64,000 nucleotides of DNA from Branchiostoma floridae (taxonomy: Eukaryota; Chordata; Leptocardii; Amphioxiformes; Branchiostomatidae): contig NC_049982.1 of NCBI RefSeq assembly GCF_000003815.2, positions 12,179,183 to 12,243,182 of the forward strand, given 5' to 3'. Each line of letters starts with the position of its first letter. Within the stretch, counting starts at the first letter, position 1. The position numbers and the translations under genes were made by a program. Of the stretch, positions 22,384 through 25,500 are shown piece by piece. Under the pieces are notes generated by a model that did no database searches, was not told the DNA's origin, and worked only from the letters and a program-made list of their open reading frames with translations.

Positions 22384-22523
22384 TTAGGTTCGCCGGCTGT
22401 CCCTGGGGTAGTATTCTGCCAGGATGTTGGTGGGAATCCGTTTCAACATCTCCTTGGGGAAGATCCGTAGCAGCGACCAGCCAATGTCTAGGGACTCGAA
22501 GATGGTTCGATTCTCGTAGGGAC
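22384..22523 (-). CDS. ATP6V1B: V-ATPase B terminal exon, distal version
   Basis: Second alternative last coding exon. The acceptor TTCTTAG/GTCCC joins exon 12 in the same phase 1, giving [16 protein letters not shown] and ending DSRRT, then stop. About 35 of 46 aligned residues match the proximal exon; differences concentrate at the C-terminal tip. Frame, acceptor and stop are intact, and most nucleotide differences look conservative at protein level, so it does not look like a decayed copy. Confidence 0.88.
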
Positions 22524-25500
22524 CTAAGAACACATCAGAAAAGTGATTAGTTTTATACTTCAAGGATAAATCCTCAAACTTATTTTTGGGAGATTGTCTG
22601 CACTGGGTTGACAGGTCCATAAGATAAATACTTACCATGACCTAAAACAGTGTTCCTGAACAAAGTAACACTGTTATACACCAGGATTCCTTACTTTCTT
22701 TAACTTTTGGTGTGAGAAAGTAAGCAAGCCTAATGGTATGGCCTCAGTCATTTCTCCACACTGGAGAGCCCTACAAGCTTGCTGGTGGCAAAGATGGCAA
22801 AAAAGGTTTGGTCATTAGTAAAGAATGACTGCGCATGCTGGCAGGCAAAGACATAAGAGCCGACCCTAACAAATTCGCAGCTGTAAACTTTATACATCCT
22901 TTATTAGAAGGATGTATTATTTTTCCTGTATCTAATCGCTTTTATTTCTACCTACAGCTTACAAGGGGAATTTCATCTCATCTGTGAAGGTTAAGAATTT
23001 TTTTCAATTTCAACTTCTTTTTTTGTCTTCTACAGTATTTCAAAATGTTTAAGATATGTCAAATGTGTCTCCTCAATAGATATACATGACAACCCCCTTG
23101 TAAACCATTTCATTTCACCTATTTTGTTGTTGTTCTGGACTCTCGAGGGTAGAACTCATTGAGAGTTTTCTCAGGTATTCGCTTCAGCATTTGCTTGGGG
23201 AAAATGCGAAGGAGGCTCCATCCAATGTCCAAGGACTCATAAATGGACCTGTTGTCATACGGTCCTGAGAGGGGGTGTAAGTGGAACAGCATGGATGGAT
23301 GGTTGTACTTGGATTCATAAAGAAAAGACACTTAAAAGCAACATAAAAAAGGTTAAAAAGTAGAAAGGTCACTGTAATGAAGGGGTAATGAAATTCAGGT
23401 ACCAACTTTATTTTGCTGATTACTCTAGTATCCCTTTCAACTTTATGGTAAAACAAGATGAGGCCAAGGAGGACATGGCTGTGCTTTCATGGCCATTTGG
23501 GGGGCTGAACCGTTCACCTTCTAGGAACAATCAGCATTTCAAGATTTCCACTTCAGTGAACCTCCCCACATGTGAAAATCAGGAGGTGAAGCACGCATGT
23601 ACCTTGGTTGATGAAGTTCTTCTCAAACTTGCTGAGGAACTCTAAGTAGAGCAGGTCATCTGGGGTGAGGGCCTCCTCTCCCACCACAGCCTTCATGGCC
23701 TGGACATCCTTACCAATGGCATAGCAGGCATACTGGAAACACAGGGGAAAAGGGTTAACTAACTTCCTACAAGAGCACTTACAATGGCATAGCAGGCATA
23801 CTGGAAACATGGGGGAAAAGGGTTAACTAACTTCCTACAAGAACGCTTCCAATGGCATAGCAGGCATACTGGAAACACAGGGAAAAGGTATCAAATAGAA
23901 GCTTCCTACAGTACACTTCCAAGGGCATAGCAGGCATACTGGAAACACGGGGGGAAAGGGTTAACTAACTTCCTACAGAACACTTCCAATGGCATAGCAG
24001 GCATACTGGGAGCACAGGGAAATAGGATCAACTACAACGTACAAGCTTCCTACAAGAAGACTTCCGAGGGGAAGTACATGTACTGTGGCCATGTCAATGA
24101 TACGTCAATGAAGGTTAGTCATCCAGGTAATATGAAATGCCAAACAGCAGTTACTCAAGCAACTGGATAGCATTTTGGTTAGATGTTTCAGATATAGCTG
24201 TAACTGCTATTTGGCACAGCTCAATGGCACAGCTCAATGGCACAGCTCAATGGCACAGCTCAATGGCACAGCTCAATGGCACAGCTCAATGGCACAGCTC
24301 AATGGCACAGCTCAATGGCACAGCTCAATGGCACAGCTGGCATACTGAAAATACAAGGCATGGGAACACACCAACACAGAATACTGTCTGCATTGCTCGC
24401 AGATCTATGTCTAAGTTTCCTTACGTACCAGCTGATTGGAGACGTCTGCGTGGTCCTTCCTCGTCATCCCTTCCCCGATGGCGGACTTCATCAGACGGGA
24501 CAGCGAGGGCAGCACATTGATGGGTGGGTAGATCTACAAGGGCAAAGCAGGTTTAGTTTTGTCATGGTGTTAGAATGTTTTTTTAGACAACTGTTGTAAC
24601 TGAAGAGTAAGGATCATATTTCTATTGAGTACAGCATCTAAATTCATAGTTTGAATTTCTTTGAATTTCACAAATGTACATTCATGACGGAGGCTGGATC
24701 AGAGTATTGTAATATAGCAGACAGTGTACCTTAACTTAAAAGTTTGTCTGTGTTGGTAGAAGACATTCTGGAAAATTTGAACTGTAATTTCTGACAAGAA
24801 AATTGACTTGGACTTCCTGCAACTTATGATCCACTGCTCACTAAGTCACACATGCTATCTACGTAATGTGACATCACAGAAGCAGTGGATTGTTCATTCC
24901 TTGACTGTTTGGTCGAAAAATTTGGATAAGACCAATTTTTATGTTGGAAATTACAGTTCAACTTTTCCAGACAGTGTACCTGTCTGTTGTGAAGCTGTCT
25001 CTCCACGTAGATCTGTCCCTCTGTGATGTACCCTGTCAGGTCAGGAATAGGATGGGTGATGTCATCGTTAGGCATGGTGAGGATGGGGATCTGGGTGATG
25101 GAGCCGTTCCTGCCGTCCACACGGCCGGCACGCTCGTAGATGGTGGCCAAGTCCGTGTACATGTAGCCTGGGAACCCCCGACGACCCGGTACCTCCTCTC
25201 TGGCAGCTGACACCTGAAATATGATCAATACCCATGAGATTACCCAGCATTTTGGTATCAAATTATCACACTTGAAAAGTGCAATACAATTTGAAACCTA
25301 AAGCATTTCAGAGCTGGTTTCAAGTGATTCAGTAATTACAGTGAAGGTTAAATCTACCTTCAACACAGAGTTTATAAAAATAAAAAAAAATAACAACAGA
25401 CTACATAAGAAAACAAGACTTACAAGTAAATTTAGATTTTTTTCAAGCAAAACCATAGGAATCTGATTGTACAAGGTGCATGAAATGACAAGTTATAATT

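Follow-up and report, generated by a model that had tools for sequence, protein, structure and literature searches.

Two candidate alternative terminal coding exons in the V-ATPase subunit B gene of the lancelet Branchiostoma floridae

Investigation of a 64,000-nucleotide stretch of the Branchiostoma floridae genome (NCBI RefSeq assembly GCF_000003815.2, contig NC_049982.1, positions 12,179,183 to 12,243,182 of the forward strand; here called the window and numbered from its first letter) revealed on the minus strand a complete gene for subunit B of the V-ATPase, with a body of 12 exons and two possible terminal exons, a proximal one (P) and a distal one (D) (Table 1). As read from the sequence, an old tandem duplication probably gave this single gene a second copy of its last exon, and the two copies were kept as alternative terminal exons.

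Table 1. Features of the V-ATPase subunit B locus (positions in the window)
Feature	Position	Strand	Remark
V-ATPase subunit B coding body, exons 1-12	23603..29323	-	GT-AG introns throughout
Body exons 1-4	29323-29206, 28209-28154, 27884-27786, 27567-27474	-	
Body exons 5-8	27179-27020, 26644-26587, 26317-26213, 25974-25877	-	
Body exons 9-12	25670-25547, 25213-24980, 24533-24429, 23732-23603	-	
P, proximal alternative terminal coding exon, 146 nt	23119..23264	-	candidate
Predicted RNA hairpin with an unbroken stem of 16 pairs (23108-23093 with 22954-22969)	22954..23108	-	
Two AATAAA, first bases 22946 and 22905	22900..22946	-	candidate poly(A) signals for P, upstream of D
D, distal alternative terminal coding exon, 140 nt	22384..22523	-	candidate
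AGTAAA 22310, ATTAAA 21813, AATAAA 20998 and 20718	20713..22310	-	poly(A) candidates downstream of D, by consensus only

Exons 1-12 were delimited by eye on the sequence and then joined computationally. The last base of exon 12, at 23603, is the first of a Gly codon that is completed by both P and D, and each of these is open to its own stop at the exon end. The predicted subunit B proteins, 508 aa with P and 506 aa with D, are identical to residue 460 and then differ, with SRTTTK and DSRRT as their respective extreme C-termini. Both match the V-ATPase_V1_B family TIGR01040 far above its cut-off of 804.65 bits (989.5 bits for the D form and 987.9 bits for the P form). Regarding the tails, which were queried against Pfam and the PDB as P or D plus the six residues preceding, ATP-synt_VA_C was matched with 44.6 bits by the P tail and 44.7 bits by the D tail (cut-off 24.7), and the C-terminal helical domain that this family describes is completed by the last exon with P as with D; the best PDB match of either tail was the mammalian B2 chain of 6vq6 (83.8 bits for P, 84.2 bits for D). 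The two exons are neighbouring and homologous, have acceptors of the same phase and end in stops of their own, as is the case in tandemly duplicated terminal exons. An earlier note on this DNA, which had proposed that one gene has a choice of two terminal coding exons, had their coordinates, their coding content and their fit to the phase of exon 12 right, and its count of about 35/46 identical residues is consistent with the 34/44 found here without gaps; the proposal itself is supported by the open, phase-correct exons, by their near-equal similarity to B2 and by the signature of purifying selection described below.

When the lancelet's own genome was searched with the whole D-form protein, 15 matches were obtained at E values of up to 1, of which 14 are pieces of the locus, P and D included, and the remaining one lies on another contig (30% identical, E 0.02). 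No second B gene and no processed copy or retrocopy was found among these 15 matches, and retrocopies or paralogues that might have preserved traces of spliced transcripts, looked for in the same set, were absent.

Splice sites were scored with an acceptor matrix built from the gene's 11 acceptors, which themselves range from -4.0 to 11.2 when each is left out in turn. The acceptors of P (4.83) and D (5.86) rank 15th and 12th among the 144 AG sites from 24428 to 22300; they are ordinary, that is, adequate and not diagnostic, because 5.4% (for P) and 3.8% (for D) of AG sites on the minus strand (n = 3807) score as high. Higher scores were obtained at AG sites where no exon is known to begin, namely 22837 (11.4), 22760 (10.8) and 22597 (6.6) between P and D, and 23371 (6.2) on the 5' side of P, and donor-like sites occur between P and D at 22636 (8.8) and 22695 (8.1). 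A further exon in this interval, built from acceptor 22837 or 22760 with donor 22695 or 22636, was considered and rejected, all four combinations being closed in the frame of exon 12, so that such exons would be untranslated or cryptic at most.

A GT stands directly after the P stop (TAG followed by GTGAAA, at 23119), so P could be an optional internal exon spliced to D, in which case the P stop would end the same protein and D would become 3' UTR. The donor formed in this way scores 2.8, near the gene's weakest real donors (1.78, 2.05 and 2.62), and a stop right at an exon junction is not expected to trigger decay. A similar arrangement is reported for oyster AOXB, and in the oyster AOX gene the first-exon-10 variant includes both copies of the duplicated exon (PMC5589949). 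The donor at 23119 is nevertheless weak, lacking a G at +5, and two AATAAA hexamers follow P, so this arrangement is given a minor though appreciable probability, and use of P and D as alternative last exons is preferred.

Repetition of the start of exon 12 was observed upstream of the exon itself. A 68-bp unit present in 4.7 copies at 23713-24034 (minus strand) repeats the exon 12 acceptor together with its first 19 coding bases, and the region it occupies had one match in the genome search. The motif CAG followed by TATGCC[A/T]GC occurs in six copies, at 24344, 24005, 23938, 23868, 23800 and 23732, the copy at 23732 leading into the full exon 12, and several of the decoy acceptors score within the range of real acceptors. 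One of the copies of the exon 12 start, at 23800-23783 (minus strand), consists of an acceptor, TATGCCTGCTATGCCATT and then GTAAGT; this is a possible in-frame microexon of 18 nt, a candidate from the letters of the DNA, that would duplicate residues YACYAI. Within intron 11, a perfect 13-bp repeat of 9.8 copies (24212-24338) has apparently grown from another copy of the exon 12 start, as judged by eye.

Regarding 3' end formation, the minus-strand AATAAA hexamers at 22905 and 22946 that the earlier note had placed between P and D are present there, two in 595 nt against an expected 0.25 (from the gene's introns) or 0.47 (from the whole window). The accompanying suggestion that P could be used with its own poly(A) site is plausible on this excess, and it is weakened by another AATAAA that lies between exon 12 and P (23412), so that the hexamer also occurs outside the stretch following P. 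Downstream, on the plus strand at 18972-20336, open frames resembling a calcineurin-like metallophosphatase were recognized by eye (SDIHVD, GDVTD, GNHE); they are convergent with the V-ATPase B gene, and the distal 3' UTR may come close to them.

The predicted RNA hairpin starts 10 nt past the end of P and stops 7 nt before the first AATAAA. Folding gave z = -3.0 for the 259-nt stretch after P and -2.8 for the whole 595-nt interval, and among 35 windows tiled over the locus (40 shuffles each) one reached the same extreme (-3.03) and another came near it (-2.72). The possibility that the hairpin belongs to a repeated mobile element was examined and discarded, as a genome search that skips very common words matched this stretch to its own locus and nowhere else. 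The hairpin predicted after P may be taken as a lead for a regulatory role.

P and D differ at 48 nucleotides over 44 codons, distributed as 11, 7 and 30 over codon positions 1, 2 and 3. Their dN is 0.17-0.20 (Nei-Gojobori; the value varies with the end point of the comparison), while dS was not computable, as is expected for saturated synonymous sites. Neutral drift to the observed third-position divergence, simulated 2000 times under a simple model with uniform sites and transitions drawn half of the time, left on average 5.2 identical residues out of 44 and never more than 15, against the 34 observed. Within this one genome, dN, the saturation of dS and the simulations all point to both exons having been kept protein-coding, and a strong signature of purifying selection on the pair is supported by these comparisons. 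The 44 codons do not suffice for building a dated tree. The flanks of P and D show no similarity above that of shuffles, so the duplication is neither recent nor an artefact of assembly.

The two tails were also compared with other eukaryotic B tails. Over the 43 positions of this comparison, P and D are identical at 33; with two mammalian B2 chains the count is 32-33 for P and 34-35 for D, and with the B chain of pig kidney it is 29 for each; yeast B shares 25/41 with P and 28/41 with D, and plant B 26/43 with P and 25/43 with D. Eighteen columns are invariant across the five eukaryotic B tails taken from the PDB, and P and D keep 17 of these each, the break being the E after Phe-Pro-Lys, replaced by Q, in P and a Phe replaced by Tyr in D. 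Relative to mammalian B2 there are four P-specific changes, all conservative (D for E, S for T, Q for E and E for D), and two D-specific ones. The distance from P to D is thus about that of either exon to mammalian B2, which makes the duplication old, unless P evolved fast.

These comparisons also bear on whether P might be a relic of exon duplication, once coding and now rarely or never spliced and drifting. GC3 is lower in P (0.54) than in D (0.76) and the gene body (0.67), with body exons 6 and 7 lying below P; P also carries four specific changes to the two of D and departs from one column that is invariant in the five other tails. Yet P has neither a stop nor a frameshift, its four specific changes are conservative, and it keeps the remaining 17 invariant columns. 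When P was given ten random substitutions (0.076 per site) under the same simple model, only 3.5% of 4000 trials remained free of stops with four or fewer amino-acid changes, which makes a long recent decay of P unlikely, and the selection signature on the pair would be compatible with a recent loss only. Decay of P is accordingly regarded as very improbable: judged by the divergence, the simulation and the scores against mammalian B2, P is an old duplicate preserved as coding sequence. Lancelet genomes are very polymorphic, and two haplotypes set side by side by allelic or assembly duplication were considered as well, but the saturated synonymous divergence, the 34/44 identical residues and the flanks without similarity above shuffles refute this in substance and leave it a vanishing probability.

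Elsewhere in the window, an open frame with the look of a fibrinogen-related domain was seen by eye at 43719-44459 (minus strand), and a 430-aa open frame at 51270-52562 (plus strand) has a YADD motif and looks, by eye, like the final part of a LINE-type reverse transcriptase.

As to what the two tails might do, the earlier note had thought of a difference of the PDZ-binding type, and this part of it found no support. When the C-terminal ends SRTTTK and DSRRT were checked against the PDZ-ligand patterns of classes I, II and III, neither gave a match. The pig kidney B chain in the PDB has a longer end that contains PDTA at 511-514 of 515, its last residue lying outside the printed alignment, and an end containing PDTA is lacking in both lancelet tails. 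PDZ-ligand tails in lancelet B were rejected on the pattern check and on this comparison. In B1, it is a C-terminal motif that binds NHERF1 (PMC3827601). A better lead than PDZ binding may be found in the contact with TLDc regulators, Phe481-Pro482, which is encoded by the last exon when residues are counted along the pig chain; Glu484, two residues further on, is Q in P and E in the five compared tails. For the human V-ATPase, a structural study reports that mEAK7 sits on subunits A, B, D and E (PMC9174246).

In the mechanism proposed here, the exon 12 donor at 23603 would be joined to the P acceptor at 23264, with cleavage probably following AATAAA 22946 or 22905; alternatively, P would be skipped, exon 12 would be joined to the D acceptor at 22523 and a poly(A) site further on would be used. 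Two mRNAs would result, encoding a different end of the C-terminal helical domain and a different extreme tail. We infer that both forms arise by splicing in vivo, that their use is exclusive and that the choice depends on tissue or condition. Most likely, D would serve as a general-purpose tail and P as a specialised one, because D is slightly closer to mammalian B2 and has the higher GC3, and because the oyster AOX gene offers a precedent. P would alter contacts of the C-terminal domain of the B subunit with regulators or with the rotor. More tentatively, and on balance rather unlikely, the lancelet might make two versions of the pump by terminal-exon splicing, thereby tuning the docking of TLDc regulators of the mEAK-7/NCOA7/OXR1 type or the contact with the rotor, perhaps with the hairpin setting the choice, where vertebrates have used genome duplication.

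Should the lancelet produce both tails, its one B gene would supply V-ATPase pumps with two B-subunit C-termini, and splicing and gene duplication could be compared directly as routes to the same diversity. The two forms would in addition be naturally occurring variants that differ in the region touched by TLDc regulators, in a protein that is otherwise identical. No earlier description of a V-ATPase B gene with alternative last exons was found among the open-licence PMC matches listed, as far as their titles and abstract openings tell.

Among known systems, the vertebrate genes ATP6V1B1, B2 and Ba likewise give at least two B subunits with different C-termini per animal (PMC3827601), the lancelet forms being predicted ones. 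The vertebrate subunits stem from gene (whole-genome) duplication, their differences extend past the tail and include regulation, and B1 has a PDZ-binding end (PMC3827601), which both lancelet tails lack. The main text of that paper contains no word starting with 'splic' or 'alternative', and the last 23 alignment positions were discarded for its tree.

The KRAS exons 4A and 4B are, like P and D, two alternative terminal coding exons of one gene that differ mostly at the C-terminus, which sets interaction or targeting (PMC9882654); in contrast to the lancelet pair, KRAS 4A derives from insertion of NRAS exon 4, according to that preprint, and the tail is a lipid-anchored one in an unrelated protein. 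Mutually exclusive terminal exons or 3' variable regions are also described for pip and PGRP-LC of Drosophila (PMC9013439), exclusivity in the lancelet being an assumption of the model; these are other genes, pip with more copies. Competing RNA structures have been reported as the switch in PGRP-LC (cited in PMC9013439), whereas for the lancelet locus folding gave the predicted 16-bp stem after P and no pairing with a splice site.

The oyster (Crassostrea) AOX gene, in which exon 10 is present in tandem, shares several traits with the lancelet B gene: a single gene, a tandem duplicate of the terminal coding exon with its own stop in each copy, and a distal copy nearer to other species next to a proximal one that has diverged with functional sites intact (PMC5589949). 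In the oyster, the distal copy is the more conserved and the proximal one is favoured under stress. AOX belongs to another family, its first-exon variant includes both copies and its 3' UTR is partly duplicated; expression and stress switching have been measured in the oyster, whereas the lancelet pair is known from genomic DNA and shows no flank similarity. With these likenesses and differences, the V-ATPase B gene of the lancelet probably adds a case to a known kind, that of tandem alternative terminal exons.
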